A DNA stretch of 60,304 bases, from the NCBI GenBank assembly GCA_029261965.1, contig JAJDAH010000174.1, positions 1 to 60,304 of the forward strand, in the 5' to 3' direction. This stretch comes from Polyangiaceae bacterium (lineage in GTDB: Bacteria; Myxococcota_A; Polyangia; Polyangiales; Polyangiaceae). Shown here piece after piece: positions 1,977 through 21,278 of the stretch (positions within the stretch are counted from its first letter, which is position 1; each line of letters begins with the position of its first letter). A program made the position numbers and the translations under genes. The notes below the pieces were generated by a model that had not been told where the DNA came from, made no database searches, and worked only from the letters and a program-made list of their open reading frames with translations.

Positions 1977-2027
1977 CCCCCTCGGGGTTTCGCCCGGCGA
2001 ATACGGGCGCTCCGAGCTCTCGTTTTT
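1977..2027 (+). terminator. Probable transcription terminator after rpsS
   Basis: Two small GC-rich hairpins lie in the 62-bp convergent gap. CCCC-CTC-GGGG (1977-1987) is followed by TTT, and CGCCCG/CGGGCG (1991-1996 with 2004-2009, 7-nt loop) is followed, 13 nt later, by five T (2023-2027). It could end both the ribosomal transcript and the opposing lipoprotein gene. The stems are short, so this is only a candidate. Confidence 0.45.
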
Positions 2028-2038
2028 GCGCGGTTCGG

Positions 2039-5596: not shown

Positions 5597-5619
5597 TGCA
5601 AGCGCACCGGATCAGGCGG

Positions 5620-6321
5620 TCACAGCCCCGCGCAAACGGGAAATTCGGCGATGGGCGCGGCTTCGGTCATCGAGCAATCGATGAATATCTGCTCGGGGAC
5701 CTCGCCGTGCATCTGGACTCGCTGCATGGCGAAAGTGCCCATCAGCTCGGACATCACAGGCTCGAAGAGTTGGCCCTGGGTGGTCCCGCAAACGAAGTCC
5801 GGTCGGTTCTTGCATACCTGCGTCGTCAGCGTCACATCGCTGCGGATCGGCGCCGGGATGATCGGGTTGCCCGGCAGCGGTACCGATTGCTCCCCCAACG
5901 CCAACACCAACGTGCCATCTCGTTCAATGATGAACTGGCGCGGTGGGTCGAAGTCTTCAATGTTGGACGACGGATCGCACGCGGCCACGGCTCGGCTCGC
6001 CATGTTGATTTGAATGCGATGGTCGGGGAGCTCTTCGGGGTCGGTGATCTGCACTTGCTGCATGCTCGGGAAAAGCTCGGCGGTGGGGATCCCGCTGCCG
6101 ATGGCGATGAAGTACAGTCCGGCGACGAGGTCGACGTCCTCGGGGGTGGGATCGCCGGGAACCTCGCAAGTGCCGGCGTCCATGTCCGGCGGCGGCGCCT
6201 CGACACAGATCGATTGTGTGGCCTGTCCGCAGCGGAAGTTGAACTTGTTGAATTCGTTTTCCGGTCCGTAACAACCCGCCGAGAGGGCGACGAGACCAGC
6301 GCACCAAATAACCCTTTTCAT
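5620..6321 (-). CDS. Putative lipoprotein of unknown function
   Basis: This is a 233-residue protein from the chosen start MKRVIWCAGLVALSAGCYG, which gives a short signal peptide and a good lipobox (LSAGC, Cys at 17). The open frame extends about 66 codons further upstream into the kinase gene, but that segment looks non-coding. The mature part has several Cys and a mixed beta-type pattern with no family I recognise. It lies 88 bp downstream of the Ser/Thr kinase and 23 bp upstream of the Cys-repeat lipoprotein on the same strand, so the three may be co-transcribed. Confidence 0.7.
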   Translation of the reverse strand: MKRVIWCAGLVALSAGCYGPENEFNKFNFRCGQATQSICVEAPPPDMDAGTCEVPGDPTPEDVDLVAGLYFIAIGSGIPTAELFPSMQQVQITDPEELPDHRIQINMASRAVAACDPSSNIEDFDPPRQFIIERDGTLVLALGEQSVPLPGNPIIPAPIRSDVTLTTQVCKNRPDFVCGTTQGQLFEPVMSELMGTFAMQRVQMHGEVPEQIFIDCSMTEAAPIAEFPVCAGL

Positions 6322-6409
6322 CGCGCGCTTCGAACCTAGCGCAGTTTCGCCGTCGAAACGAGGGCGCGTCTCGGGAGGCTCGTGGGTATCTCCGCTGTCG
6401 CTCCCGCGC

Positions 6410-8122
6410 TCAGCGGATGTTCTCCTGCCCCCAGGGGTGCCGGCTGAGGAGCGCTCGCCCTCCGTCGCGTAGCCGCTTGTCGAGCTCGTCGCGGGTCGCG
6501 TCTCGAAGTGCCGCGGCAAAAATCGGAGCCGAGCCGAATCGCTCGTCGGGGTTTTTGGCCAAGGCCATGGCCAGCACGAGCTCGACGTCCTCGGAGATGT
6601 TGCTCAGATCGCTCGGTTTCGCCGGCTGCTTGTCGACGACGAGCAGCATCGTGGCCGCTGGTGACGAGGACGAAAACGCCGGCCTGCCGGTGAGGCAGCG
6701 ATACGCGATCGCACCGAGGGAAAACACGTCCGATCGATGGTCCACATCGTTGCCGCGGGCCTGCTCTGGAGACATGTAGCCGGGCGTGCCGACGACGGCG
6801 CCATGAGTCAACGAGTTGGCACTCTGGACGATTTTCGAGACACCGAAGTCGAGCACTTTCCAGACACGACCGTCTTCGGAGTCGCAGCTGAAGAGGTTCT
6901 GCGGCTTGATGTCCCGATGTACGATGTTCTCTTCCTGGGCTACGGCCAGGGCTTCTGCGACCTGGTTGACCAATAGGATCACTTCGGAGACGGGCAGGCG
7001 CTTTTTCTCCCTCAACAGCTCGGCCAGGTCCCGGCCTTGGAGGAGCTCCATCACCAGATACGGCGAACCGTCGGTGGCGTGTCCGCTCTCGAGGGTGCGA
7101 ACGACGTGGGGAGAAGCCAAGGAGCCGGTGATCTGCGCCTCGCGAAAAAAGCGTTGCACGTGGTCCTCCTCCGAAATCATGTGCGGATGGAGCACCTTGA
7201 TTGCGACGGCTTGGGCCGATTCCGCGTGCACGGCTTCGTAGATCTCGCCCATGCCGCCGCGGCCGATGACGTCGCCGATGTCGTAGGGCCCGATCATAGT
7301 TCGGGTGAAACGACCGAAGCGCCCAGCGTCGACGACGCGGTCAAAATCGGCACGTGCTTCATTCAAGAGAGCCTCGCGCTGCAGGATCTGCCGTCGCGCT
7401 TGCTCGAGCTGGTCCATTGCGCCCCGGGTGGCCCGCCGGACCGCGCGCCCCAGCATGTAGGTCAACCCGATGATGCCCTCGACGAACGCGGCGTTCGCCC
7501 ACATCTCGTTGACGTCCTCGCGGGCGAGCGCCAGGACGGTTTCGGACGGAACGATGACCCCGGTGGTCGTCAACGCCACGACGACCAAGTAGCCGCCGGC
7601 GCACAGTCCGAGCACGATCCGCCCGCTCTGCTCGAGATCACTCGCCGCGTAGTAGTAGGCGACCAAGGGCATCAGCATGACCGCCCAGCTCAGAATACCG
7701 ATGTTGCCGATGACGGTGAGAATCAAAAGCGAGAGCGCGACCCCCATGACGATCGGTGTTGCTTTCAGCGACTCGCCTTTGCCGCGTTGGATCGTGTAGA
7801 GCACGATCGCGGTGACGAGGGTCAACACGAGCGCTGCGGTGACGAAGTGGTGTGTCGGGGGGCGCACCTGCGCGAACTGATTCAGAATCACGCCGCTGCT
7901 CGCGCCGAAAATCACCGCGCGCAATCCGGCTTGCGCTTGGCGCACTCGCTCGCTCTTCAGCGCGGCCGATCCGACGAGACTGCTCTCGGTTCGTGTGTCG
8001 ACGATGCTGCTTGTGGACGCCACGGTTCGGGTGCGACCGCGCGCGACCGCGGCCTCGATGACCGTGGGATCTTCGGACGGCGAGCCGGTGCCCTCGCCGC
8101 CCTCTGGCTTCCCAGAACTCAC
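6410..8122 (-). CDS. Membrane Ser/Thr protein kinase (Hanks type) with N-terminal membrane domain
   Basis: This is a 570-residue protein. Residues of about 65-225 hold several hydrophobic segments (about 66-82, 92-112, 122-158, 167-191 and 212-225), followed by a helical linker (about 230-268). The kinase domain covers about 280-545: glycine loop GRGGMGEIYEAV (287-298), AIKV lysine at 309, HRDIKPQN (402-409), DFG (425-427) and the activation-segment end GTPGYMSPEQ. All catalytic residues are present, so it should be active on cytoplasmic Ser/Thr. PknB-type kinases usually place one membrane helix after the kinase domain; here a multi-span domain precedes it, so the signal may be sensed within the membrane. 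It is divergent from the lipoprotein gene at 8259. Confidence 0.92.
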   Translation of the reverse strand: MSSGKPEGGEGTGSPSEDPTVIEAAVARGRTRTVASTSSIVDTRTESSLVGSAALKSERVRQAQAGLRAVIFGASSGVILNQFAQVRPPTHHFVTAALVLTLVTAIVLYTIQRGKGESLKATPIVMGVALSLLILTVIGNIGILSWAVMLMPLVAYYYAASDLEQSGRIVLGLCAGGYLVVVALTTTGVIVPSETVLALAREDVNEMWANAAFVEGIIGLTYMLGRAVRRATRGAMDQLEQARRQILQREALLNEARADFDRVVDAGRFGRFTRTMIGPYDIGDVIGRGGMGEIYEAVHAESAQAVAIKVLHPHMISEEDHVQRFFREAQITGSLASPHVVRTLESGHATDGSPYLVMELLQGRDLAELLREKKRLPVSEVILLVNQVAEALAVAQEENIVHRDIKPQNLFSCDSEDGRVWKVLDFGVSKIVQSANSLTHGAVVGTPGYMSPEQARGNDVDHRSDVFSLGAIAYRCLTGRPAFSSSSPAATMLLVVDKQPAKPSDLSNISEDVELVLAMALAKNPDERFGSAPIFAAALRDATRDELDKRLRDGGRALLSRHPWGQENIR

Positions 8123-8168
8123 GACCCCAACAGGATCGCAGGATGCGTGAGGATTGCCCCGGGAAATC

Positions 8169-8192
8169 GCCCCTGCATCACTGTGCAGGGGC
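8169..8192. promoter_or_regulatory. Perfect 9-bp inverted repeat in a divergent promoter region
   Basis: GCCCCTGCA (8169-8177) and TGCAGGGGC (8184-8192) are exact reverse complements around a 6-nt spacer. They lie in the 136-bp gap between the kinase (minus) and a lipoprotein (plus). It could be an operator half-site pair or an RNA hairpin in either leader; there is no T-run, so a terminator is unlikely. Confidence 0.4.
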
Positions 8193-8258
8193 AGCGCAAT
8201 TCCGTGGGGGGAGCCGCCGACGCGGCGATGGAGCTAGATTGCTGCTCGAGGTGAGAGC

Positions 8259-9356
8259 ATGTCGAGGCTGAAGGCGAGGCGGATCGAGTTCGTGGCCGTA
8301 GTTGCGGCCCTGGGTCTTCTGTCATGCGGTGGGAGCGGTAGCAGCGCTGACGGTGCGGCTGGGACGGGCGGCGCGATGACCGGCTCCGGTGGTAGCGGAG
8401 CCACGAGTGGCGCCGGCGGGACCGGTGGCGGAGCTCCAGGCGGAGTCTGTGACCAGGCGGAAGGTCCCACGGAGCTGGCCGGGCAATGGGCGGTCAAGGC
8501 CGACCTCGCAGTTCGAATAGTCGGAGCCGCGGGTTCGGCGGTCCTGCTCTGCCCCGATCCGCAAACGACCACCGCATCGTTTTTCCTCCACGTCGAGCTG
8601 AGGGGCAGCGGCGCCAATCTGACCCAGAACGTGCGAGTCTGCGACATTGCGCTGCCCGCGGTGACCGGCGGCGTCGGCGCTTGCCCGGCCGATCCCAGCC
8701 AAGCCATAGAAACGAGGATCACGCTTTCGAACGCGCTGGCGACGCACCTGCCGACGGTGCTGGTCAGTGACGTTCAAGTGACACTAGCGAGTGCCGAAGC
8801 GGGCACGCCGTATCGACCGTCGGCATTTTCAGTCGTGCTCGGTGCCGATCTGCCGTCTCCCGAAACCGATCCGTTGCCCTTCTGGGACGCCGGGCGACCC
8901 AACTGTGGAACCTTGGCAGCGGGTGCCATGCCGGCCGACTGCGTCGTCGACTTCGCCCGGATCGTCGATTCCGACTCGGACACATTTGCCGGCGTGACTG
9001 TTGGTGCCACGGCTGTGGACCCGACAACCGGGAACCGTGTCATCGATGGCGACGCCTACGCCGCGTTTCGCGTGTCGCCGCTCCTGGATGGTTTGGTAAG
9101 AAGCTCGAGCTGCATCGATGGCAACCTGACCGCCGACCTCGAATTGTCGATTGTCGACAGCGATGTGAGCTTGATGGGGCTTCCCATCTCCACGCCGCTC
9201 TTGCTGCAGCAGGTTCCGCCGTTCGAGATTCTGCCGGAGAGCACGTTCAAGATGCTGCGCGCCGACGGCACGGGCGACCTCGACTTCGACGACGACGGCG
9301 ATTCGATCGTCAGTTGCGACGAGATCCAGAATCACGCGTCCGCTTTCCTTCGTTAG
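8259..9356 (+). CDS. Putative lipoprotein with Gly/Ser linker
   Basis: This is a 365-residue protein. The start ATG at 8259 is preceded by GAGGTGAG at a good distance. The signal peptide ends in a lipobox (GLLSC, Cys near residue 23), followed by a flexible Gly/Ala/Ser/Thr linker to about residue 62 and then a domain of about 300 residues with paired Cys and beta-rich character, ending near an acidic DFDDDGDS stretch that could bind Ca2+. I recognise no family. It stands just upstream of two FadL-like genes and may share their transcript, although a strong palindrome separates them. Confidence 0.7.
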   Translation: MSRLKARRIEFVAVVAALGLLSCGGSGSSADGAAGTGGAMTGSGGSGATSGAGGTGGGAPGGVCDQAEGPTELAGQWAVKADLAVRIVGAAGSAVLLCPDPQTTTASFFLHVELRGSGANLTQNVRVCDIALPAVTGGVGACPADPSQAIETRITLSNALATHLPTVLVSDVQVTLASAEAGTPYRPSAFSVVLGADLPSPETDPLPFWDAGRPNCGTLAAGAMPADCVVDFARIVDSDSDTFAGVTVGATAVDPTTGNRVIDGDAYAAFRVSPLLDGLVRSSSCIDGNLTADLELSIVDSDVSLMGLPISTPLLLQQVPPFEILPESTFKMLRADGTGDLDFDDDGDSIVSCDEIQNHASAFLR

Positions 9357-9381
9357 CAGGCCGTTGAAAAACGGCCTGCTA
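9354..9381. repeat. REP-like palindrome, copy 1 (12-bp arms, GAAA loop)
   Basis: TAGCAGGCCGTT (9354-9365) and AACGGCCTGCTA (9370-9381) are perfect complements closed by a GAAA tetraloop of the stable GNRA class. The palindrome includes the stop codon of the preceding lipoprotein and the TTG start proposed for the next gene. A second copy at 58759-58784 has the same outer and inner bases with two compensated base-pair changes. Confidence 0.75.
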
Positions 9382-10725
9382 CGCGATCGGCGGCACCAGC
9401 GCCGGAGTCGCCTCACTCTACTCGTCCTGTTGGCGGGTCTCACCTCGCCGAGTCGCGCCCCGGCGAGTGGGGCCGACGTTTTTGGTCTCGGCTCCGAAGC
9501 GATCGCGAGAGGCGGCGCCATGACCGCGGCCGCGGTGGGTTTCGAAGCAACGTTCTACAACCCCGCGGGCCTCGCGTTCGGCGAGCGACGTGAAGTGACG
9601 TTTGGCTACCTGCGCATCGTGCCGGACCTGAGCATCAACACCCGGAGCGGTAGTCAAAACCAGGACATTCGCAATCCGGACATGCTCGTCGTCGGTGCCG
9701 CCGTGCCGATCGGCAAGTACTTCGCGCTCGGTCATTCGACGTACTTCTTGCCGGACACTCTGCTGCTCGAGCTAGTCAACGGGCCCGAGGATCCGTTTTT
9801 TGCCTACTACTCCAACCGCACGCAGCGCTTCACCGTGATGCCGGCGATGGCCGTCCGCCCCTTCGACTGGCTGGCGGTGGGCGTGGGAATGAACTTTCTC
9901 GCTGGTCTTTCGGGCACTGTATCTGCTGACGAAGGTCCGACCCGCGAGATCGAGGCCAACGTGTCGGAGGAGCTGCCATCGAGGGTGGGACTGCACGCGG
10001 GACTGCGCGTGGCACCGGGAAGTCTTCTGTCTTTTGGGTTCGCGTACCGACAAGATTTCCGGGTTCCGTTCGCTACGACGACGTCGAGTCAGATTGCTGG
10101 GCAAACCGTGGACATCGACATCGATGCGCGAACGCTCGAAACGCCGCACGAGCTCGCGTTCGGTGTTGCGGTCGACCACGCAGAGCTCAGCCTCTCGTTC
10201 GATGGCACTTATCTCCGTTGGAGCCGAGCGAGGGGGCCGTTCGTGCGGGTTTCCTCCAACGTCAGCGGCGTTCGCATCGAACAGCCACCGCCCGAGAACC
10301 CTTTCGTCGACACGTTCAACCTCCGACTCGGCGTCGCCGTGGACCATCGGTTGAGTGACGAGCTCGTGGTCACCTATCGCGGAGGCCAGCACTACGAGCC
10401 CAGCTTCTTGTCGCCTCAGACGGGGCGCGCGAATCTCGTCGACGGCGACAAGCTCGGGTTCTCGGGCGGAATCGGGCTGACGTTTCTCGACGTGTTGCCC
10501 GGGCAGTTTCGACTCGACGCGCACGGGCAGGTCACGAGCGTACTCACTCGTCGATTCGACAAGGTCGTCTCCACTCCAGCGCAAGCGCGAACCGATCCGA
10601 ACGCGCTTGCCGACGACGAAACCGCCCCGGGATTCCAAACCAACAACCCTGGATTTCCGTTCGTCGCCGGGGGTGGGAGGGTCTACACGCTTGGCGCGAC
10701 GGTCACCTTCGAGGTGGATCCATGA
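9364..10725 (+). CDS. OmpP1/FadL-family outer-membrane transporter, copy 1
   Basis: This is a 453-residue protein. After a basic N-terminus and hydrophobic signal (LTLLVLLAGLTS) the mature N-terminus reads GADVFGLGSEAIARGGAMTAA followed by NPAGLA, the typical FadL/OmpP1 pattern (plug and first strands, GRGG-like and NPAG motifs). The rest alternates in beta-barrel style and ends in VTFEV. The family imports hydrophobic compounds such as long-chain fatty acids across the outer membrane. The start is uncertain: no ATG or GTG lies before the signal peptide, and the TTG at 9364 lies inside a hairpin. The stop overlaps the next gene (ATGA), so the two porins are translationally coupled. Confidence 0.8.
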   Translation: MKNGLLRDRRHQRRSRLTLLVLLAGLTSPSRAPASGADVFGLGSEAIARGGAMTAAAVGFEATFYNPAGLAFGERREVTFGYLRIVPDLSINTRSGSQNQDIRNPDMLVVGAAVPIGKYFALGHSTYFLPDTLLLELVNGPEDPFFAYYSNRTQRFTVMPAMAVRPFDWLAVGVGMNFLAGLSGTVSADEGPTREIEANVSEELPSRVGLHAGLRVAPGSLLSFGFAYRQDFRVPFATTTSSQIAGQTVDIDIDARTLETPHELAFGVAVDHAELSLSFDGTYLRWSRARGPFVRVSSNVSGVRIEQPPPENPFVDTFNLRLGVAVDHRLSDELVVTYRGGQHYEPSFLSPQTGRANLVDGDKLGFSGGIGLTFLDVLPGQFRLDAHGQVTSVLTRRFDKVVSTPAQARTDPNALADDETAPGFQTNNPGFPFVAGGGRVYTLGATVTFEVDP

Positions 10726-11996
10726 GGGCGGGCGCCATCGTTTCGGCGAGCTTGCTCGCGTGGCCGAGCGCCGCGTTGGCGAATCCGACGGATCTGTTCG
10801 GCTTCGGCAGTCGGGGACCGGGCCGCGGCAACGCGATGGTCGCCAGCGACGATGGTTTGTCGTCACCGATGTACAATCTGGCGGCGGGTGCGATGGGACC
10901 GGGTCCCGAGGTGGGAGGCGGGTACACCTACGCGGGCATCGACATCGAAGTCAACGAGCAGGATTCCCGCTTGTTCGACGCGCACGGCAGTTGGCTCGCG
11001 TTGTCCGTGCCCTTCGACGTCTCGAGTGCGCGTGTCGCAGCGTCGGTGGGTTTGTACACGCCCGACCAATTTTTTTTACGCATCTACTCGGCGCCGGCGA
11101 CAGAGCCGCGAGCAGTCATGTGGGACAACCGACCCCACCGTGTGGTTTTCAACGCCGGACTCTCGCTCCAGCTGGCCGACGTGGTCTCGTTCGGCGCAGG
11201 AGTGTCAGTGCTCGGCGACGTCGATGGCGAGGTGCGCTTCCGGCTCGGCTCACGGCCTGGCCGCACGCTTTCGGACGCTTCGGTCGACACCCACCTGCCG
11301 ACGAGGGTAGCGCCGCTTCTCGGCGTCATCGTCACGCCGACCGACGAGATCCATCTCGGGGCGCGTTTTTCGGGCGAGCTCTTCCTCGAAGTCGAACTAT
11401 TGGCCTTCGCCGCGACCAATCTCGAGGGAACGGGGCTCCAGGGCACGACGTCGCTCACTACGACCGGCGCTTCTTACTTCACGCCCCGCGAGCTTGCGCT
11501 CGGCGGGGCCGCGGACTTCGGTCCCTGGACGGTCGCGCTGGAGGTTTCTTGGCAAGGTTGGTCGCGCACTCCGCCGCTGAGTTTGAACGTGGACATCGAA
11601 GCGGACCTGGGCGTCGAAACCCCAGTTTTTGGGTTCACTTCCGAGGACCCGAGATTCCGCGACATCTTCGTTCCACGATTCGGCGTCGAGCGCCGAATCC
11701 CAACCGGTACGGTATCGGAGCTCACCCTTCGCGCCGGCTATTGGTACACGCCGAGCCCCGTTCCCCCTCAGCGCGGGTTGACGAGCTATGCGGATTCGAA
11801 CCGCCATGCGTTGACTCTCGGTGCGGGAGTCGCTTTCGAGGTCGAAGACGTCACGATTACTCCGGAAGTGGCGGGACAAGCTCACGTGTTGGAACGACGA
11901 GAAACCCGGAAGACGAACCGAGGGTCGCCCGGCGGTGATCTAGTGAGCGATGGACGTGTCTTTGTCGGCACCGTTGGTGCGAGGATCGAATTTTGA
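10722..11996 (+). CDS. OmpP1/FadL-like outer-membrane protein, copy 2
   Basis: This is a 424-residue protein. The signal peptide MRAGAIVSASLLAWPSAALA is followed by NPTDLFGFGSRGPGRGNAM and an N-LAAGAMGPG stretch, parallel to the start of copy 1 and to the FadL/OmpP1 family. The barrel-like alternation continues to the terminal aromatic VGARIEF, a standard C-terminal insertion signal. Sequence between the copies is well diverged, so this is an old duplication or heteromeric partner. The ATG at 10722 overlaps the upstream stop, and the following gene starts at TTGA overlapping this stop. Confidence 0.75.
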   Translation: MRAGAIVSASLLAWPSAALANPTDLFGFGSRGPGRGNAMVASDDGLSSPMYNLAAGAMGPGPEVGGGYTYAGIDIEVNEQDSRLFDAHGSWLALSVPFDVSSARVAASVGLYTPDQFFLRIYSAPATEPRAVMWDNRPHRVVFNAGLSLQLADVVSFGAGVSVLGDVDGEVRFRLGSRPGRTLSDASVDTHLPTRVAPLLGVIVTPTDEIHLGARFSGELFLEVELLAFAATNLEGTGLQGTTSLTTTGASYFTPRELALGGAADFGPWTVALEVSWQGWSRTPPLSLNVDIEADLGVETPVFGFTSEDPRFRDIFVPRFGVERRIPTGTVSELTLRAGYWYTPSPVPPQRGLTSYADSNRHALTLGAGVAFEVEDVTITPEVAGQAHVLERRETRKTNRGSPGGDLVSDGRVFVGTVGARIEF

Positions 11997-13420
11997 GGAC
12001 ACGCCACCGCCTGGGAGCGCTCTTCGTGGCAGCGTGCGCGGGGGTCGCGGCCTCCGCGGCCTTCGTGTCCTGCGCGGCTCTCGACCAGAGAGAGAGCGGG
12101 CGTCCTCTCGATGACGGCCTGGCGCCGTACCGCCGCGCGGCGCGCGTCGAGGTGTGCCTCGGACCGACCCGTCTCGTGGATGCGGCTCCGTCGAGCGGCC
12201 GGGCCGGAGTATGCCGCCTCGACGGGACGTCGCCTTCACCCTGCACCAGCCGCGAAGACTGCCGCTCTCGTGAGTCGTGTGTGTGTGGGCGATGTACCGC
12301 GCAGCTTTGCCGGTTCAGCAGCGATTGTGCTGCGGGGTCCAGCTGCGCCGGCAGCTCGCCCAGTCGGTGCGGAGCGCGCTGCGAACGGGATGCCGACTGC
12401 GCGCCGGCCGAGACCTGCGAGGATGGCGTGTGCACGAGTCTTTGCCGTAGCCCCGACGAGTGCCAATCCGGCGAGCTTTGCTTGAGCGGTCGGTGTGTCG
12501 TTCTCGCGTGTGGTCCGAGCGGGCCGGCGTGCGGTGGCGGTGAAGTGTGCGACGTCCAGCTCGAAGTAGGGCGCCTGCGCGGTCCCGCCGCGCTCGAGTC
12601 GAACGGCGTGACCGTGCTCTACGCTGAACTCGGAGCGTCGGACGGAAGCTCGAGCATCATCCGCGCCGAGTCGGAGGATGGCGTGCGATTTCAGACCGAG
12701 CCCGATGTCGCCGTGGTCACGCCGGATCCGGACCAGACGAGCGTCGGAGCGCCGGGACCGGTCGCGATCGACGGCGAAGTGCACCTCTTCTACGAAGTGG
12801 ATGATGGCGCTTCGATCGCTCGGCGTATCGCCCCCGACGGGCAGTCATTCGGGCCGGCGACGACGGTGCTGGTGCCAACCGAGGCGTGGGAGGCGGGCCG
12901 CGTCGGGGCGCCCGCTGCCGCCAGGGTCGGCACACGCACGATGCTCTTCTACGAAGGAGGCGACGCACAGGGCATCGGATTTGCCGTCGCCGAGAGCGGG
13001 GTCTTCTTGCGTGTAAATGCGCCGGTGCTTCGCGCCGTGGATTTCGACTCGCCGCCCGAGTGGAGAGGCGTCGAGCGGCTCGGCCAGCCATGGGCGGTCG
13101 TCGTGGACAGTCTGCTGGGAGACCGAACGCTGAGGTTGTTCGTGTCCGGCGTTGGAGTCGAGAACACCGCCCCGCGACAGGCCGACGGTGGTCCGCCGGC
13201 GCGGAACCTCTCGATTGGCGTGGCCATCGCCCCAGCCGCGAGCGAGCCGCCCGAGCTCGAGGTTTGGCCGTTCAATCCGGTCCTGGGAGAGCTCGAGGCG
13301 CTCGCTCCCGCGGCCGAAAGCTCGCCGACGGTCGTCAGGGTGGGTACCGAATGGCGAATGTACTTCGAGTCCCCGAGCGGTTTGTCGATGGCGGCGCATC
13401 CGCCGAGACCGACCCGGTGA
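11993..13420 (+). CDS. Cys-rich lipoprotein with a predicted beta-propeller (GH43-like) C-terminal half
   Basis: This is a 475-residue protein with a TTG start overlapping the upstream stop (TTGA). The signal peptide ends in a lipobox-like AFVSC. Residues of about 70-185 hold small Cys-rich modules of the CxxxxDC-x4-SC type. From about 190 the pattern of repeated blades (VTVLYAELGA, HLFYEVDDG, RTMLFYEGG, EWRMYFES) resembles the five-bladed fold of GH43/GH32/GH62 glycosidases, where such strands end in Y or F near the substrate. I cannot identify the three catalytic acids with confidence, so it may be a non-enzymatic surface propeller. The gene closes the plus-strand block begun at 8259. Confidence 0.65.
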   Translation: MRTRHRLGALFVAACAGVAASAAFVSCAALDQRESGRPLDDGLAPYRRAARVEVCLGPTRLVDAAPSSGRAGVCRLDGTSPSPCTSREDCRSRESCVCGRCTAQLCRFSSDCAAGSSCAGSSPSRCGARCERDADCAPAETCEDGVCTSLCRSPDECQSGELCLSGRCVVLACGPSGPACGGGEVCDVQLEVGRLRGPAALESNGVTVLYAELGASDGSSSIIRAESEDGVRFQTEPDVAVVTPDPDQTSVGAPGPVAIDGEVHLFYEVDDGASIARRIAPDGQSFGPATTVLVPTEAWEAGRVGAPAAARVGTRTMLFYEGGDAQGIGFAVAESGVFLRVNAPVLRAVDFDSPPEWRGVERLGQPWAVVVDSLLGDRTLRLFVSGVGVENTAPRQADGGPPARNLSIGVAIAPAASEPPELEVWPFNPVLGELEALAPAAESSPTVVRVGTEWRMYFESPSGLSMAAHPPRPTR

Positions 13421-13450
13421 AGCGCGCCGACATGCTCAGGGCGCTTCACC
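13416..13450. terminator. Probable bidirectional terminator hairpin overlapping two converging gene ends
   Basis: GGTGAAGCGC (13416-13425) and GCGCTTCACC (13441-13450) are exact reverse complements with a 15-nt spacer. The arms include the last codons and stop region of both converging genes (stops at 13418-13420 and 13436-13438). There is no long T-run, but position and perfection suggest a shared terminator or a barrier to read-through. Confidence 0.5.
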
Positions 13451-15244
13451 TTCGACGACGATGCGTCGCCAGATCTCGAAGGTGAGCAGCATCCAGAGCC
13501 GTAGCCCGTAGCGGCCGGGTCCTTCGATCGTGTCGTAGTCGATGAGTTGTTTCACGCGCTGCTCGTTGAAGATGCCTGCTCGCTTGAGTGCTCGTCGCGA
13601 GAGAATCTTTTTTGTGTAGCGTTTCATTTCGTCGCGGAACCAATATCGGACGGGTACACGCATTCCGCTTTTTGGTCTCGCGAGCACGGGCGCGGGCACG
13701 ATCCCGGCGTAGGCCCGCTTGAGCACGATCTTTTCGATGCCGCGGCTCAGTTTCAACGTTGGGGGCATCGCAAAGCTCGCGGTGACGAGTCGTTCATCGA
13801 ACAAAGGCGCCAGCGCGGTGAGCCCCCATGCCGCGGTCATGCGGTCGACCTTTGGCAAGATCAGGTGCGCGCCCTTGAGCCGAAGGTTGATGGCGCAGAG
13901 CTTGTTCAGGAGCGTTGCCGGCTTCTCGCAGTCGAAAAACGGCGTCAGCAGACCCTCGAGGTCGCGTTCGGGCTCGACCTGTTGCACGAGGTCCGGCGCC
14001 AGCAGCCGAGGCCACTCTTCGTACGAGCGACGGTAGGATTCGAGATACACGCGCTCGCGGTATCGGGGGCCTCGCTCGATGCCCCCGTACCAATGATGCA
14101 GCATCATCGGGATGTTCTTCGGCCCGCCGAACAATGGATCGCCGCCTTCGCCGTTGAAGACGCAGCGAGCATGCTCGCTCGCGTGCGCCGCAAGCTCGAA
14201 GTTCGGAACCGTGATGGGGTCACCTATCGGGTCGTCGAGGTGCCAGATGATTCGTCGCAGTCGCGGCAGGAAGTCCTTTGGTCGTACCAACACCTCCCGG
14301 TGGTCGGTCTCGAAACGTTCTGCCACGAGGCGAGCGAACTCGAGCTCGTTCGGGTACTCTTCGCCGAAGTGGATCGAGAAAGTCTTCACCGGGCGGCGAT
14401 GCTGCGCGGCGACCTCGGCGGTGACGATGCTCGAGTCGAGTCCGCCCGAAAGAAACACCGCGACGGGTTCGCCCTTCGGCAAGCGCTCGGCGACCGCTTG
14501 GCGATGCAAGTCCTTCACGTGAGCGACCCATTCGGTCTCCGTCCTTTCTTCCGGGGGAGGATCCTCGAAGAAGAAGTACCGTTCGAGTCGTGGCGGCTCA
14601 CCGGGTCGAACCGTCAGGTGGTGCCCGGCAGGTAGCTCGCGCAGGCCTTCGAGCATCGTGTCGGCGCCCGGGACGAAGCTGAAGCTCAGGTATTGGGCGA
14701 TAGCCGCGGGCCGGATGCGCCTCGGAAATCCGGGTGCCGCCAACACGGCTTTGGGCTCCACCCCAAAAAAGAGCCGACCGTCGTGTTCGAGAAAGTACAG
14801 GGTCCGGACCCCAGCCGCGTCGCGGGCGAGGTGCAGCGTCGTGTCGTCGAGCACGGCGGCGACCCACCCGCCCCGCAGTTTCTCGAACGAGTCCGTGCCG
14901 GTTTGGGCGAAGAACTCCGCTAGATTTCTGTCTCGGTGCTCGGAGACGACGTGACCGTCGATGGCGACGGCGAGCTCGATCGACGAAACGTCGACGTGGG
15001 GGCGAGCGGTTGCGCTTCTACTGTCGAAGCAGAGCGCGCTCGTGCCTGAAACCACGCCGTCGCCGACCGCGACTCGCGTTTCGCGCATGGCCGGGGCGAC
15101 GCTGACGTGGCCATCGTGGATGGCGATGCTGCCGTGGGCGGACTCGAGCAGTGTGTTCCGTGACCCGCGATGGGTGAGCACCGCGCCCATTCGGTCGATG
15201 AGCCTTCGGTCCGGCGGACCCGTGAATCCGTAGAGCGCAGCCAT
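13436..15244 (-). CDS. Asparagine-synthetase-like amide ligase lacking the glutaminase Cys2 and the catalytic Glu
   Basis: This is a 602-residue protein with the two-domain layout of class B asparagine synthetase: an N-terminal Ntn-hydrolase-like domain (about 1-215) and a C-terminal ATP-pyrophosphatase domain. The PP-loop SGGLDSS (266-272) is intact, so ATP adenylation of a carboxylate is likely. However, the N-terminus reads MAALYGFTG, with Ala where the nucleophile Cys2 of MCGIxG should be, so it cannot make ammonia from glutamine. The loop normally ending GEGxDE reads GEGGDP (365-370), with Pro370 at the position of the Glu that serves as general base in E. coli AsnB. Beta-lactam and carbapenam synthetases and lasso cyclases are known relatives with similar losses, so an amide-forming ligase using an amine substrate is likelier than asparagine synthesis. 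It is the third gene of a cupin / zinc-ribbon / ligase operon. Confidence 0.85.
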   Translation of the reverse strand: MAALYGFTGPPDRRLIDRMGAVLTHRGSRNTLLESAHGSIAIHDGHVSVAPAMRETRVAVGDGVVSGTSALCFDSRSATARPHVDVSSIELAVAIDGHVVSEHRDRNLAEFFAQTGTDSFEKLRGGWVAAVLDDTTLHLARDAAGVRTLYFLEHDGRLFFGVEPKAVLAAPGFPRRIRPAAIAQYLSFSFVPGADTMLEGLRELPAGHHLTVRPGEPPRLERYFFFEDPPPEERTETEWVAHVKDLHRQAVAERLPKGEPVAVFLSGGLDSSIVTAEVAAQHRRPVKTFSIHFGEEYPNELEFARLVAERFETDHREVLVRPKDFLPRLRRIIWHLDDPIGDPITVPNFELAAHASEHARCVFNGEGGDPLFGGPKNIPMMLHHWYGGIERGPRYRERVYLESYRRSYEEWPRLLAPDLVQQVEPERDLEGLLTPFFDCEKPATLLNKLCAINLRLKGAHLILPKVDRMTAAWGLTALAPLFDERLVTASFAMPPTLKLSRGIEKIVLKRAYAGIVPAPVLARPKSGMRVPVRYWFRDEMKRYTKKILSRRALKRAGIFNEQRVKQLIDYDTIEGPGRYGLRLWMLLTFEIWRRIVVEGEAP

Positions 15245-15247
15245 GGC

Positions 15248-16303
15248 TCAGCCGAAGTCCGCACCCCCGCTCGCGTCGCCCGTGCCTCCGGGGGCTGCTT
15301 GGGCTTGCGCAATCGCGGTGGTCATCAGCATGCCGGTGCCTACGGCGCCGGCGAGCCCCGCGGCCAGCGCGCCGTACGGCAAGAAATCCACCGGCACCTG
15401 GCCGCCGGTGGCGTTGGGTCGCGTGTCTTCGATCGACTTGATGAGATGGATGTTCTGTGGAAACAGGCCCGCGTCGTTCATCGGCCGGCCGGCGAGCGGA
15501 TAGACTGTCGACCGCGCGAGGCGGTCTTTCATTGCGAGACCTTCGGGAGTCGAGTCGTGGAGCAAGATCACCGGAAGGTCTGGGCGTTCGCTCAGAAACT
15601 TGCGTGCCGTCTCGACCAAGTAGCGCGGATAGCCGTTCTCGGAGACGACGAGCGCACGATGTTCGGCGTGGAAACCGTTCTTGACGAACAAATCGACGTG
15701 CAGGTCGTGCTGCACGATGAGGAGGCGTTCGACGCCATAGTCGTAAATGTCGCTCTCCCGGTAGGGATGATTCGGCGCGTGGTCCAAACTCGGCTGTCGA
15801 AGCAGTTTGGAGATCGGGCGTCCGGCGCCTTCCCATTTACCGAGCCAGCCGTTTAGCCGTTCGTCTGACGGACGAGGTTTTGGCCGTCGTCTCGCTGCGA
15901 TCAAGAGAGCGGCGCCTACGGTCAACAGGAAGATGCCGGGGCCGGCGAGCGCCGCCACGATGACGATCGAGTCGACGACGTAGCCAACGAGCCTATATTG
16001 GGCTCCGCCGGCGTGCAGCCCGCCCCAGACGATCGCTCCGATGCCCAGCAGCATCGCGAAGCATCCCCCGCAACCAGCGCAGCCCGTGTCGGTTTTGGCG
16101 ATCGGCATCCGACAGTAGGCTGAGAACAGCTGATTCATCGTGAAGTAGTAGGTGTTGTTCGAGCTCACCGATTCGATGAGCTTCTTGAACTTGCCGTCGG
16201 TGATCCCGTCGACCTTGGGGTCGAACACGAACGTGTAGCGGCAGTTGTTGCACACCAACCCCGAGCGGCGCAGGTGGTTGTGCTGGCACTTGGGGCACTT
16301 CAC
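15248..16303 (-). CDS. Zinc-ribbon membrane protein with a C-terminal alpha/beta domain, unknown function
   Basis: This is a 351-residue protein from the chosen GTG at 16303, which overlaps the cupin stop as GTGA and places CPKC at the very N-terminus; the longer open frame upstream is shadow. A zinc ribbon is formed by C3/C6 and C18/C21. A second Cys cluster CAGCGGC (75-81) precedes two membrane segments (about 82-98 and 108-137) and a basic RRRPKPRP stretch. Residues of about 188-270 form an alpha/beta unit (VERLLIVQHD, ALVVSENGYP, LPVILLHDSTPEG), loosely like a Toprim or phosphatase fold but without a clear DxD pair. The C-terminus has a further hydrophobic Gly/Ala stretch. No family is recognised. 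The stop lies 3 bases before the ligase ATG. Confidence 0.7.
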   Translation of the reverse strand: MKCPKCQHNHLRRSGLVCNNCRYTFVFDPKVDGITDGKFKKLIESVSSNNTYYFTMNQLFSAYCRMPIAKTDTGCAGCGGCFAMLLGIGAIVWGGLHAGGAQYRLVGYVVDSIVIVAALAGPGIFLLTVGAALLIAARRRPKPRPSDERLNGWLGKWEGAGRPISKLLRQPSLDHAPNHPYRESDIYDYGVERLLIVQHDLHVDLFVKNGFHAEHRALVVSENGYPRYLVETARKFLSERPDLPVILLHDSTPEGLAMKDRLARSTVYPLAGRPMNDAGLFPQNIHLIKSIEDTRPNATGGQVPVDFLPYGALAAGLAGAVGTGMLMTTAIAQAQAAPGGTGDASGGADFG

Positions 16304-16995
16304 CGAACGTTCTCCGGTGTCTCCCGCGGCATCGGTGGAGTGTGTCCGATGATCGTCTTGTTGATCATCGGGTGTTCTTCGTGCGTGGGGCCGTGGTCGC
16401 TGTCGGGGTGATAGACGACGACGTCGAGAAACGAGTCGTCGGTGTGAAAGCTGTGGGCACAGTCCGGCTCGATGGCGAACACGAGTCCCGCCGACAGCGC
16501 ATGGCTCCGTTCGGGCGTCACGCAGTGCCCCCTGCCCGCAGCGATGATTCCGATTCGGAGTGACGGGTGAGTGTGGCGTGTCTGCTCGGTGCTTGCGGGA
16601 ATGTGCAAATGGTTGAGGCACGGGTCACCGAGCACGTTCGGTGCGATGAGGAGCGAATCCGTGCAGCCGTCGATGTACCGCAGTCGACCTACGGGTTCGA
16701 TTGGGCCCCCGACGCCGAACAGCGAGCGGTGCCCGAGACGAGTCGCGATGAAGCCACTTCCCCCGTCGAGCGTCGTGGGCCCCGCAGACGTGAAGTACAT
16801 GCCCTCCTCGAGGGTGAAGGTGCCACTCGTCGTGCGAAGCGTCGTGCTGCCGGAATGCACGTAGCCGTAGTGCGAACCGTCGTCGGTGAGCTCGAGCGAA
16901 GAGCCGTGGAAGCCTCGGCAGATGGTCTGGTCAACGCTACGGCGCGCATCGTGCAGCACGCCGTGTTCGAGGAGACGAGCGACGAAGCCGGACAT
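16300..16995 (-). CDS. Cupin-domain protein (probable bicupin)
   Basis: This is a 231-residue protein. Residues of about 135-200 read HTHPSLRIGIIAAGRG, then GLVFAIEPDCAHSFH: the two cupin motifs with HxH and a downstream His as metal ligands, though the usual Glu of motif 1 is not evident. The first half (about 35-95; SGSTTLRTTSGTFTLEEGMYF) looks like a second, ligand-poor cupin barrel. Cupins act as small-molecule dioxygenases, isomerases or sensors; the substrate is unknown. It is the first gene of the coupled trio; the stop overlaps the GTG of the zinc-ribbon gene. The polyproline outer-membrane gene lies 46 bp upstream on the same strand and may join the transcript. Confidence 0.75.
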   Translation of the reverse strand: MSGFVARLLEHGVLHDARRSVDQTICRGFHGSSLELTDDGSHYGYVHSGSTTLRTTSGTFTLEEGMYFTSAGPTTLDGGSGFIATRLGHRSLFGVGGPIEPVGRLRYIDGCTDSLLIAPNVLGDPCLNHLHIPASTEQTRHTHPSLRIGIIAAGRGHCVTPERSHALSAGLVFAIEPDCAHSFHTDDSFLDVVVYHPDSDHGPTHEEHPMINKTIIGHTPPMPRETPENVR

Positions 16996-17041
16996 GGGCC
17001 GATACTAGCGTCGACCCGCCCGGGATGGTGAGCCCTGCGTG

Positions 17042-18121
17042 CTAGAGCAGGTCGTATCCCAGTCGCACGGTCAGCGTCGGCAGGTAGCCGTAGGTCTCGA
17101 TTTGCTGGTCGAGGAACGCCACGGCCGCCGTCGTTGCCAGCCCCTGAGGCCCGCTCGAACCCGCCTCCGAGCTCGTCCGCACGAGGCTCTTGGACGACAG
17201 TGTGCCGAGTACCCCGATACCGATCCCGAAGACGAGACCGTCGTTCAGCTGGCCTTGCCACCCCATCTCCGCAGCCCACATTCGAACTTCGGTTTCGAGC
17301 TCGTAGGCGCCTTGGTCGATGCCTGTGGTGTCGACGTCGAAGTTCGCCGCCATCGCGGCGACGTCGCTGCCCGAAAGCCGTCCCTGGAGCGTGATCACGG
17401 CGTAACCTCCGTCGAGGTAGAAGCCGGAGTTCTTGAACGGACGAAGCCCGATCTGTGAGCGCCACGACGTTCCGCGGTTGAACGCCGCGTCGACCGAACG
17501 AGCCACGAATCCGTCGTACGCCCCTGCGGTGGCGAGCGCGTCGTTGATGAGCCCGACGTAGGCGCCGGGGATCGCCCCGAAGCCCATTGAAAGTCGAACG
17601 CGAAACGGGGCCTCGATGGTCACTCGCCCCCCGATGTCCACCGGAGCGTTGGTCACCGCTTCGAGCGAGAACATCCAGTCTCGCCCGGAGCCCTTCTCTC
17701 CTTCTTCGGTGGCCGCGGCGCGGTCGAGAGCCGGATCTTCCCCTGCAGCTCTTCGAAGCGCCGGGGGACCCGGCTGCCTGCCCGTTGGAGGCAACGGGAC
17801 GTAGCTCGGCCGCGCGGGCGGGGGGGCGTAGGTCGGAGTTGGGGGCGGGTAGCTCGGTGCGGGCGGAGAGTAGTAGTTGCGTGCGGGTGGCGGGTAGTAG
17901 CTGCTGGGTGCGGGCGGCGGGTAGTAGCTGGGTGCGGGCGGCGCCGGGGGAGCAACGGGCGGCGGGACGGGGCGAGCCGTCGGCGAATACACCGGAAAAC
18001 TAGCCGTCGGTGGACCCTCCGCCTGGGCGGCGACTGGGCTAGCCGAGACTGGGCCGCCGACGAGGGCGACGGCGACCAGAGCCTTGCCGGCTCGGACGAC
18101 CTGCGAGAACGAACGCGCCAT
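17042..18121 (-). CDS. Polyproline outer-membrane beta-barrel-like protein
   Basis: This is a 359-residue protein from the chosen ATG at 18121, which gives the signal peptide MARSFSQVVRAGKALVAVAL...ASPVAAQA; the 40 upstream codons look non-coding. A Pro/Tyr/Ser-rich segment (PPPAPSYYPPP-type repeats, about residues 40-140) is followed by a domain of about 190 residues whose alternating strands (FRVRLSMGFGAIPGAYVGLIND; SQIGLRPFKNSGFYLDGGY) and end LTVRLGYDLL suggest an 8- to 10-strand barrel. The Pro-rich arm may span peptidoglycan. A similarly built gene lies at 40559-41665. Confidence 0.65.
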   Translation of the reverse strand: MARSFSQVVRAGKALVAVALVGGPVSASPVAAQAEGPPTASFPVYSPTARPVPPPVAPPAPPAPSYYPPPAPSSYYPPPARNYYSPPAPSYPPPTPTYAPPPARPSYVPLPPTGRQPGPPALRRAAGEDPALDRAAATEEGEKGSGRDWMFSLEAVTNAPVDIGGRVTIEAPFRVRLSMGFGAIPGAYVGLINDALATAGAYDGFVARSVDAAFNRGTSWRSQIGLRPFKNSGFYLDGGYAVITLQGRLSGSDVAAMAANFDVDTTGIDQGAYELETEVRMWAAEMGWQGQLNDGLVFGIGIGVLGTLSSKSLVRTSSEAGSSGPQGLATTAAVAFLDQQIETYGYLPTLTVRLGYDLL

Positions 18122-18288
18122 TCGCGCCCATGAACGGCTGGGTGCGGGCGGCCTTGAGCCCAAGCGTCGGGTGCCGTTCGTCGGGAGCGCCCCGGCGCGA
18201 GCCGCCAGGACGGAAATGTCGCGCCGCGCCGTGATCGCCAATGGATCCCCGGCGCGGCGCCCCTTCGAGCGAGCTAGCTAGCTCGGGG

Positions 18289-19575
18289 TCACGGGAACGC
18301 GCAATTGAGCACGGTGTCGACGCAGGCGTCGCCGACTCCGCTGACGCACGTGAGCACGGCTTGAGCGCCGACGGCAGTGAAGCCGGCCAGCGTCGTGTTG
18401 CACTCGTCTTCGGTCACGACGGGTCCGCCGCCGCACGAGCCAGCCGCCAGCGTCGCGCAGTCGTCGAAGAAGCGCGGCCACTGACAGCCGTTGGCGATGG
18501 CGTTGGTGGAGCAAGTGACGGCTGCGGCTTCGTACGCGCCGTCGCACGCATCGGTGCCGACGATGGCATTGACGCAATTGACGTACGCCTCGAACACGGC
18601 CGGGCGGCCGTTGCCCGACGGGTCGAGCGTATTGCAGAGCGAGATGCTCTCCGGCGGGAGTGCGTCAGTGCAGGTGGTGCCCGATCCGAGCAACCCTGCG
18701 CAGGTGCCAGAGAAGCCCGAATCGACGAGGGTGTCCTCGGAGCACATGAAGTTCGAGGTTGGCGTGAACGCGCAGTCGGTGAACGCACCGACGCACGGGC
18801 CACCGGCACAGTCGAGAATGTTGCGCGCCTCGGCGAGCGTGAAGCCGGCCAGGGTCGTGTCGCACTCCGCGGCCAGAATGTCGCTATCGTTCACGTCCGC
18901 GCAGGTTTGAGCCTCGAGCGCGGTGCAATCCAGCTCGGTGGCCACCCACACGCAGGAGTTGCCAAAGTGCGCGTCGATGCAGGCGAGGACCTCCGTCTCG
19001 AACGCCGTGGCGCAAACGTCCAGCGACGAGTTGATGGCGTCCATGCAGTTGTAGACGGCCTCGAAGGTACCGGGGCGGCCCTTTGCGGAGAGTCGCTGGC
19101 AATTCTGGAAATGCAGCGGGTCGAGACCCGTGCAGCTGGTGTCCCAGTCGCGGAGCGCCTGGCAGTCACCGGCGAAGCCGGGGTTCATCAGCGTGTTGTC
19201 GAGACAAGCCGGCGCGCCTGCGGCACCCGCGGCACCCGAGGAGCCGGCTGCGCCGGAGCTTCCCGCCGCACCACCAGCACCGGCGCTTCCGGAGGAGCCA
19301 GCGGCACCAGCCGCACCCGCGCTACCCGCGGCGCCGGACGTTCCCGCGCTTCCCGAAGAGCCCCCAGCTCCGCCGGTTCCGGCTCCGCCACCGGCGCTGC
19401 CTCCAGATCCGGAGCTGCCTCCAGATCCGGCGCTGCCGCCGGTGGCCATTCCGCCAGCGGAGCCACCGGTGCCGTCGTCTCCGTCGTTGATCGTCGTGTT
19501 CGAAGAGCACGCCACCATGCCGATGACACCAAGTGATGCCACGACGCCAATCCCCAGAAGCTTACGAGTGTTCAT
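18289..19575 (-). CDS. Cys-rich lipoprotein with Gly/Ala/Ser linker, paralogue A
   Basis: This is a 428-residue protein. The lipobox is GMVAC (Cys at 23). Residues of about 33-120 are an almost pure Gly/Ala/Ser/Thr linker (SGSAGSGG-type repeats). The remaining roughly 300 residues hold about 30 Cys in two tandem halves, each with the pattern C-x-LD-x4-GRPxxFEAxxNC...C-x-W...CDTTLAGFT...ILDC...DCAF. The ATG at 19575 has GGAGGG upstream. It lies 95 bp downstream of paralogue B in the same direction. The function is unknown; the spaced Cys suggest a rigid, disulfide-bonded extracellular domain on a flexible stalk. Confidence 0.8.
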   Translation of the reverse strand: MNTRKLLGIGVVASLGVIGMVACSSNTTINDGDDGTGGSAGGMATGGSAGSGGSSGSGGSAGGGAGTGGAGGSSGSAGTSGAAGSAGAAGAAGSSGSAGAGGAAGSSGAAGSSGAAGAAGAPACLDNTLMNPGFAGDCQALRDWDTSCTGLDPLHFQNCQRLSAKGRPGTFEAVYNCMDAINSSLDVCATAFETEVLACIDAHFGNSCVWVATELDCTALEAQTCADVNDSDILAAECDTTLAGFTLAEARNILDCAGGPCVGAFTDCAFTPTSNFMCSEDTLVDSGFSGTCAGLLGSGTTCTDALPPESISLCNTLDPSGNGRPAVFEAYVNCVNAIVGTDACDGAYEAAAVTCSTNAIANGCQWPRFFDDCATLAAGSCGGGPVVTEDECNTTLAGFTAVGAQAVLTCVSGVGDACVDTVLNCAFP

Positions 19576-19669
19576 GAAAGTCCCTCCAACAAGAAACGAC
19601 GGTAGTTCGAGACAAAAGACAGATTCGGCGCGGAGCCTAGCTCATTCTTTCCGCGTGTCCACTTCGTGA

Positions 19670-20902
19670 TCAGGGGAACGCGCAGGTCTGGAGATCCGTC
19701 GCGCAGCCAGGATTCGATCCTTCCGCGCACGTCAGAATCGCTTGCGCGCTCGCCAGGCTGAACCCCGCCAGCGTCAGGTCGCAGTCGTCGGCGGTGATTT
19801 GATCGTTCGCGTCCCCGCAGGTGTTGCCAGCCAGAGTCGCGCAGCGAGCCTCGAGCGACGTCCACACGCACGAGCGGTCGAAAGCGTCGTCGAAGCAGGT
19901 GAAAGTGGCGGCATTGGCGGACTCGTCGCACGCCGCTGTCGCATCCGTGATGCTCGAGGTGTAGCAGTTGAAAAGCGCCTCGAAAGTGCCCGCACGGCCA
20001 TCGGTTTCGACCCGCTGACAGATGTCCATGAAGAGCGGCGTGTTGCCGCTGCAGTTCTCCGTGGCGAACGTGTGGTTCGCGCAGACTCCATTGAAACTCG
20101 GATCCGCCAGAGTGGCGTCGAGGCAGGCCGTCGGCGCGTTGGCGAGGAACGGGAAGGCGCAGAGCGTGAAATCGTCGACGCAATCTCCAGTGCTCGTGCC
20201 GTTGATGGCGCAGTCGAGGATCTCCGAACGCCCTTCGTCGTTGAACGCGAACAGCGTGCCTTCGCACTCTCCCGCAGTGATCCCGGTACCGCCATCTCCC
20301 GGAGGACAGGCAGCCAAGGTGATGTCGGGGCACCCGAACCCGCCTGCATCTCCGATGCTCACGGTGCTCGCGTCGCACGCGAGGGTGAACACCTGATCGA
20401 CGCAGCTCCCGTCCGCCAGCATCACCGCGTCGTCGTGCTCCACCGAGCACGACCCTTGAGTCGGCGCGACAGCCATCAGACACGTGTGCAGCTCTTCGAA
20501 GACCTCGTCACGGCCGCTGGCGGCCATGCGGTCACAGAGATCCTTGCCGAGCGGTTGAATGCCGCCGCAGTCGTCCGCGGCGTAGGGTAGGTCGTCGCAG
20601 CTCGGTTTTGCATCGGCCGTGCCGACGTCGCCGAGGCATTCTCCGCCAATGACTCCGCTGTCGCCGGCGGTGCCCGCCGTCCCCCCAGTCCCCGCCGAGC
20701 CTCCCGCGCTTCCGCCGGTTCCCGCCCCAGCCGAGCCGGCAGTGCCTGCCGCACCGCCAGTGGCTGGAACGCCTCCGGCCCCGACGATGCCGGCGTCGGA
20801 GTCGGGTTTGGTGTCGACGGATTCGACGGTGCATCCCGCGGCGGCCGCGGCTCCGAGCGCTAGCATCGAGACTAGGGCCGAAGCCCGCTTGAGATGACCC
20901 AT
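19670..20902 (-). CDS. Cys-rich lipoprotein with Gly/Ala/Thr linker, paralogue B
   Basis: This is a 410-residue protein from the ATG at 20902, which has GAGGAG upstream and begins the signal peptide MGHLKRASALVSMLALG with lipobox AAAGC; 39 further upstream codons are open but unlikely. The linker (about 40-85) is shorter than in paralogue A. The Cys-rich part again has two halves with GRxxxFEALFNC, CVWTSLEARC and CDLTLAGFSLASAQAILTC, and both paralogues end QTCAFP or LNCAFP. It is the last gene before the ribosomal run resumes; a sigma-70-like promoter is visible upstream. Confidence 0.8.
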   Translation of the reverse strand: MGHLKRASALVSMLALGAAAAAGCTVESVDTKPDSDAGIVGAGGVPATGGAAGTAGSAGAGTGGSAGGSAGTGGTAGTAGDSGVIGGECLGDVGTADAKPSCDDLPYAADDCGGIQPLGKDLCDRMAASGRDEVFEELHTCLMAVAPTQGSCSVEHDDAVMLADGSCVDQVFTLACDASTVSIGDAGGFGCPDITLAACPPGDGGTGITAGECEGTLFAFNDEGRSEILDCAINGTSTGDCVDDFTLCAFPFLANAPTACLDATLADPSFNGVCANHTFATENCSGNTPLFMDICQRVETDGRAGTFEALFNCYTSSITDATAACDESANAATFTCFDDAFDRSCVWTSLEARCATLAGNTCGDANDQITADDCDLTLAGFSLASAQAILTCAEGSNPGCATDLQTCAFP

Positions 20903-21012
20903 GGTGAATACTCCTCGTCGGTTCGACGGAGTGATACGCGATTTGGTGCACCGTATTCCTCCGAAACGGATCGGCTTTCCCGGCGCGCCACCAGAGTCAG
21001 TATTAGATAACG

Positions 21013-21041
21013 ATATCAAGCATATGTAACTCGACTGTCAA
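21013..21041 (-). promoter_or_regulatory. Sigma-70-like promoter candidate for lipoprotein paralogue B
   Basis: On the minus strand a perfect TTGACA (21041-21036) is followed after 17 nt by TGATAT (21018-21013), which matches the -10 consensus at 3 of 6 positions. It lies about 110 nt upstream of the ATG at 20902 in the AT-rich patch. Confidence 0.45.
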
Positions 21042-21091
21042 ATCGGAGTAAAAGCTCTAAATGGGGCCTCGTGGCCCCGCGGCATCCCTCC

Positions 21092-21120
21092 TTGCCGATC
21101 GCCACGGCACTTGCTAAACA
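21092..21120 (+). promoter_or_regulatory. Weak promoter candidate for the rplV-rplQ run
   Basis: TTGCCG (21092-21097), a 17-nt spacer and TAAACA (21115-21120) lie about 160 nt before the rplV ATG. Each box matches the sigma-70 consensus only moderately. Some promoter must exist here, because the preceding 19 kb ends with minus-strand genes. Confidence 0.3.
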
Positions 21121-21278
21121 GCGCTCCCCTTTCTGACACCACACAGGTGCCAGACCCCGTCGATTCCCACGAAAACTGAGCGGCCAAACGGTCGCACGTC
21201 TTCTCCTCCTCCGAGGCGATGGGTGCTCGGGTCTTCTCGTCCCGAGGGGCGGCAAGTCCGAATAGGAAACTGTCGCAA

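Follow-up and report, generated by a model that had tools for sequence, protein, structure and literature searches.

A three-gene operon on the minus strand of a Polyangiaceae contig (JAJDAH010000174.1, assembly GCA_029261965.1; the window analysed is its positions 1 to 60,304, 60,304 nucleotides) belongs to a conserved module, seen in about 12 phyla with its genes in several orders, that combines an AsnB-like ligase, a cupin and a protein here called mid. Mid is built of a zinc ribbon, a membrane hairpin, a Toprim domain and a flexible C-terminal tail, and it ends in Phe-Gly or Tyr-Gly (FG or YG) in 83 of the 88 cases with AsnB in the locus. Among 450 further genes called at the loci, none encodes such an end. 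The trio may be a carrier or conjugation (protein-modification) module whose ligase activates the terminal Gly of mid and joins it to an amine or ammonia, a reading to which a probability of about 0.48 is given. The cupin gene (16300–16995; 231-aa open reading frame (ORF) matching cupin models in Pfam), the mid gene (15248–16303; 351 aa, GTG start) and the ligase gene (13436–15244; 602 aa; PF00733, E-value 3e-76) are laid out as the first-pass annotation described them, with a GTGA overlap of cupin and mid at 16300–16303 and the ligase start 3 bp past the mid stop codon.

The tail of mid in the window (15251–15295, minus strand), delimited by AlphaFold2 confidence and by FG/YG conservation, ends in Asp-Phe-Gly (15251–15259, minus strand). 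The last 11 residues of the model have predicted local distance difference test (pLDDT) scores of 40–49, while the rest is confident. In an alignment of ten mids nearly all end exactly at FG, and the residues before it vary in length and are unalignable; the tails are often rich in Gly, Ser and Asp and finish as [D/S/G]-[F/Y]-G. Among the 84 tailed mids the last residue is Gly throughout, the one before it is Phe (67) or Tyr (17), and 78 have Asp, Ser or Gly at position −3. At the DNA level this end is written with any of the four Gly codons and with either codon for Phe or Tyr, and in 36 of the 84 no AsnB start follows within about 150 bp. Selection is therefore on the protein end and not on a ribosome-binding site, and the tail is not an artefact of the downstream AsnB start. 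Six mids have no AsnB in the locus; five of these are tailless, and the sixth, a paralogue in the source genome (contig C140), is tailed (tail versus AsnB in the locus, Fisher p 3e-5, not corrected for relatedness). Of the mids found later, five whose genomes have AsnB end in FG, and those at L204, L207 and L208, from genomes without an AsnB match, have neither an FG nor a YG end. Three cyanobacterial loci (L150, L151 and L157) carry one ligase and two or more mids, and the complete mids there all end in FG (DSFG or DCFG). Some Okeania mid paralogues are broken. At a Chloroflexota locus (L142:3254–3829) mid is tailless, and the next ORF, of 191 aa with its own predicted start, is Gly-rich and ends in GDFGTDSFG, as if the tail had moved onto a separate protein.

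A general ubiquitin-like tag with many clients was considered and rejected: GAYTTYGGNTRA occurs 22 times in the source genome, and in a scan that took in neither TAG stops nor the YG form, a Gly-rich tail ending in DFG was found only on the two mid paralogues. A DksA/TraR-like zinc-finger protein of the same genome (L235; C430:5769–5780) also ends in DFG, without a Gly-rich tail, which is probably a coincidence.

The module was followed across genomes by a scan of species genomes with an AsnB alignment (479 relatives, 80 kept). Besides Myxococcota, it returned Planctomycetota, Pseudomonadota, Thermodesulfobacteriota, Bacteroidota, Verrucomicrobiota, Lentisphaerota, Armatimonadota, Acidobacteriota, Aminicenantes, Chloroflexota and Cyanobacteriota. 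Mid was found in 87 of 95 AsnB loci and all three genes in 50 of the 95, within the stretch fetched for each. Since all three genes are conserved in other genomes, the trio is not a chance grouping. A search at the phylum level found mid in 28 of 379 genomes. When AsnB-carrying genomes were searched whole, mid was present in 12 of 12, including two with no mid near the AsnB locus, whose distant mids end in SSFG and DSFG. In a comparison of 318 genomes of the class, mid and AsnB occur together in 17, mid alone in five, AsnB alone in one and neither in 295; one of the five mid-only genomes (G030) has a truncated AsnB that scores under the threshold. In genomes of the same family the pair of mid and AsnB is found again, in the orders cupin-mid-AsnB (the window), cupin-mid-AsnB with a tetratricopeptide repeat (TPR) protein before AsnB (G131), AsnB-mid-cupin (G020 and G112) and AsnB-mid-AsnB (G124 and G142); in G032 mid and AsnB are paired and the cupin is not adjacent. 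Two AsnB-like genes surround mid at the variant loci L024, L025, L061, L064–L067, L069, L070 and L073. Where such loci were read, the upstream copy has GEGGDQ..GGW and the downstream copy GEGGDP..GGPKN, which suggests a heterodimer or two successive steps. At L026:4665–10720 (G133) two relatives of WbuX-like sugar amidotransferases and a type I asparaginase flank the ligase and mid. An apparent mid-AsnB fusion (L105) was not used, the mid tail and the AsnB N-terminus both being absent at the junction, probably through deletion or misassembly.

The ligase scores 257.9 bits against PF00733 (Asn_synthase; cut-off 21), with a weak N-terminal GATase_7 match, and the fold of its predicted model (pLDDT 90.6) matches TsnB9, AsnB (1ct9), beta-lactam synthetase (1jgt) and CarA. 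In its ATP pyrophosphatase loop, SGGLDSS (residues 266–272; 14429–14449, minus strand), S266, G267, G268, D270 and S271 are invariant in 70 relatives. Position 2 is Ala (MAALYGFTG), and Cys2 occurs in 0 of 106 relatives; a Competibacter-type subgroup has a Cys at position 3. The score against NCBIfam TIGR01536 (asn_synth_AEB) is 236.8 bits, below the cut-off of 267.1, and that against the lasso cyclase model NF033535 is 122.2 bits, below 525. Together with an enzyme of the MCGI...GEGSDE type encoded elsewhere in the same genome, the missing Cys2 and the sub-threshold NCBIfam score bear out the first-pass view that this is not an ordinary glutamine-dependent asparagine synthetase. The other part of that view, in which Pro370 of GEGGDP (365–370) stood at the site of the base Glu and new chemistry followed from its loss, does not hold. 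The general base of AsnB is Glu348, the first Glu of GEGSDE in the E. coli enzyme. Its equivalent in the alignment is E366, which is kept here and invariant in 70 of 70 relatives, and a lost catalytic base is thereby ruled out. In GEGGDPLFGGPKN (residues 365–377; 14114–14152, minus strand), E366 and D369 are kept; D369 (E. coli D351) and K525 (E. coli K449) are both invariant. Pro370 aligns with E. coli Glu352 and P375 with Tyr357, and both prolines are present in 64 of 70 relatives, with Gln and Trp in the other six. In PesC, a Glu363-Tyr368 pair that is conserved in five asparagine synthetase-like (AS-like) enzymes positions the substrate carboxylate (PMC13060819); from the five-residue spacing we infer that this pair may be equated with E352 and Y357. 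Judged from these residues, the ligase looks to have retained adenylation chemistry, with a rebuilt carboxylate pocket and without the usual ammonia source.

Mid has no Pfam match above cut-off and is in no Pfam family; mids in general are folded proteins of about 250–440 aa. The first-pass annotation had called it a zinc-ribbon membrane protein, and both parts are present, but the Toprim domain and the Phe/Tyr-Gly tail had been overlooked. The zinc-ribbon cysteines are C3, C6, C18 and C21 (16241–16297, minus strand), of which C18 and C21 are conserved in 62 of the 62 relatives aligned there and C3/C6 in 50. Two membrane helices are predicted in the model at residues 79–98 and 109–138 (15890–16069, minus strand), and a hydrophobic stretch is present in 63 of 72 relatives. 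The Toprim domain, of the topoisomerase VI-A type (residues 172–327; 15323–15790, minus strand), was assigned by VIA-align, PF21180 and column counts. In VIA-align it matches topoisomerase VI subunit A (1d3y) with a Z score of 10.2 and a root-mean-square deviation of 4.2 over 143 residues, outranking other Toprim proteins. PF21180 is matched weakly by 39 of 72 mids, and the mid in the window scores 20.4 bits, under the cut-off of 24.1. In place of the Toprim acidic triad this protein has Q198, D250 and T252; the third acid is Asp in only six of 72 mids and Ser or Thr in most. Because N209, H212, P226, H249, D277 and G279 are conserved instead, the altered residues suggest a different active or ligand site.

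In the cupin, H141 and H143 (16567–16575) and H181 (16453–16455) are invariant in 50 of 50 relatives and likely form a 3-His metal site. At position 147, close to where the Glu of motif 1 usually stands, all 50 have Arg. As fetched, 44 of the 95 AsnB loci lack the cupin, which is therefore regarded as accessory rather than essential. Other recurrent neighbours are the TPR protein (8 loci), which lies between mid and AsnB where checked, and a protein of about 270 aa without a family (6 loci).

What the conserved tail suggests in the first place is that a protein C-terminus is modified or recognised. AS-like enzymes offer a precedent, since peptide C-termini are the substrates of TsrC, ScdTA, AsnO and PesC (PMC13060819). 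That the tail serves as ligase substrate, what kind of amine is used and what the cupin does are all inferred. The ligase would use ATP to adenylate the C-terminal Gly of mid once the flexible tail has entered its active site. It would then couple the activated carboxylate with an amine or with free ammonia, since the usual route to ammonia, from glutamine, is closed to it. Mid would act as a carrier, membrane-bound in most species and resembling LysW in its use of a C-terminal motif, and the 3-His cupin would modify, oxidise or sense the attached group. Several observations weigh against such a module. Five AsnB-linked mids have no tail, namely those at L073 (first copy), L104 (ending in DDDFE), L140 (DGE), L142 and L059/G030, and the mid at L205 (G464) is an exception in being tailless with AsnB on another contig. 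The second mid of the source genome (L021:7352–8434, contig C140) has a DDFG tail and lies beside nuo genes, with no AsnB or cupin there; it could be served in trans by the trio's only ligase. The Glu-Tyr pair of the PesC type is Pro-Pro in the ligase of the window. On a tree, co-loss of tail and AsnB amounts to about three independent events (three supported pairs), too few for a test. Because the correlation on the tree rests on so few events, weight is placed on the cross-phylum conservation of the last two residues and not on co-loss. More tentative is the fuller claim of a new class of carrier or conjugation system in about 12 phyla, in which a membrane-anchored degenerate-Toprim protein has its aromatic-Gly end activated by an AsnB-type ligase and joined to an amine (a metabolite, a lipid head group or a protein), and in which a cupin works on whatever is attached.

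The same tail could instead be a docking peptide, with mid as a membrane scaffold or regulator recruiting a ligase that makes a small-molecule amide, and with the cupin as a tailoring enzyme or metabolite sensor. Docking is a frequent role of short linear motifs at C-termini, mid has conserved pocket residues of its own (N209, H212, H249 and D277), and the ligase has lost the carboxylate-orienting pair. A sodium/solute symporter close to the ligase in seven loci (L082:4444–5898 and six others) may hint at an imported small molecule. However, an exactly terminal Gly is what an enzyme that activates C-termini would need, relatives of the ligase act on C-termini, and no gene for another substrate consistently accompanies the module; docking is judged rather unlikely. 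Plain amidation, in which the ligase would use free ammonia to amidate the last Gly of mid as a stabilising or signalling change and mid would carry nothing, appears less probable again. TsrC and ScdTA do amidate peptide C-termini, PesC can replace glutamine by ammonia (PMC13060819), and E366 is kept, but loss of the glutamine-using Cys in 106 of 106 relatives would be odd for an amidating enzyme and the conserved cupin would be left unexplained. That an ordinary ammonia-dependent asparagine synthetase lies in the operon by chance is very improbable. Its ATP site is intact and it does match asn_synth_AEB, but under the cut-off and with E352 and Y357 replaced; the gene is also kept with mid across phyla in several orders, and the genome already encodes the MCGI...GEGSDE enzyme.

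The surroundings of the operon were also surveyed. The S10 ribosomal gene cluster is split in the window, rpsS (1677–1976) and rplV (from 21279) being separated by about 19.3 kb (1977–21278), and the genes in between include the trio and those for a protein kinase, two FadL-like outer-membrane proteins and Cys-rich lipoproteins. The window contains no tRNA genes, and a promoter and terminator scan found sites no commoner than in shuffled sequence. An anti-phage defence system was rejected, as the PADLOC defence models gave no significant match (best E-values 0.013 and 0.061). The source genome comprises 9.59 Mb in 480 contigs.

Ubiquitin-like conjugation, the LysW-borne synthesis of amino acids and several peptide natural products all depend on enzymes that activate the C-terminus of a protein itself. 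The pairing of an AsnB-type enzyme with a folded partner that is mostly membrane-bound and keeps its last two residues from Cyanobacteria to Planctomycetota would be a further way of doing so, and mid is in any case a widespread protein family without any Pfam model. The first-pass annotation had proposed an undescribed system and a search for the same trio elsewhere. The module proved to be widely kept, and the case named there as refuting it, a trio kept together in no relative, did not arise. No description of the module was found in the open-licence papers searched, which gave only precedents for AS-like enzymes on peptide C-termini. Both the kind of enzyme and the carrier logic have precedents; if real, the carrier-protein system would be one not yet described, and if proved, the carrier reading would establish a new class of system.

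Among known systems, peptide aminoacyl-tRNA ligases (PEARLs) extend the C-terminus of ribosomal scaffold peptides (PMC12715798). They are lantibiotic-dehydratase-like and use aminoacyl-tRNA, and none such is among the recurrent neighbours found at these loci. With topoisomerase VI-A and Spo11 mid shares the fold of residues 172–327; it differs in that the last Asp of the DxD motif is mostly Ser or Thr, in its newly conserved Asn, His and Asp residues, and in the added zinc ribbon, hairpin and tail. Lasso cyclase and the beta-lactam and carbapenam synthetases resemble the ligase in their AsnB fold, altered substrate pocket and formation of amides without asparagine. Their partner genes differ from mid and the cupin, and beta-lactam synthetase has Tyr348 where the ligase keeps E366. 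LysW, which ends in EDWGE and is loaded by LysX, uses the gamma-carboxyl of its terminal Glu (PMC10433800). The LysW/LysX and ArgW/ArgX pairs share with the trio a zinc-binding carrier, a conserved C-terminal motif (EDWGE there, [DS][FY]G here) and a dedicated ligase gene. LysX, however, is an ATP-grasp enzyme and the ligase here is AsnB-like, and LysW has about 54 aa and neither Toprim nor membrane parts; with a tail of the form [DSG][FY]G in place of EDWGE and no ATP-grasp ligase, the trio falls outside the amino-group carriers. TsrC, ScdTA, AsnO and the nitrile synthetase PesC differ from the ligase in its lack of the N-terminal Cys and in its Pro-Pro for their Glu-Tyr pair, and the partner here is a folded protein, not a short precursor peptide. 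What these enzymes have in common with it is the PF00733 fold, the ATP pyrophosphatase loop and, likely, the C-terminus of a protein or peptide as substrate.

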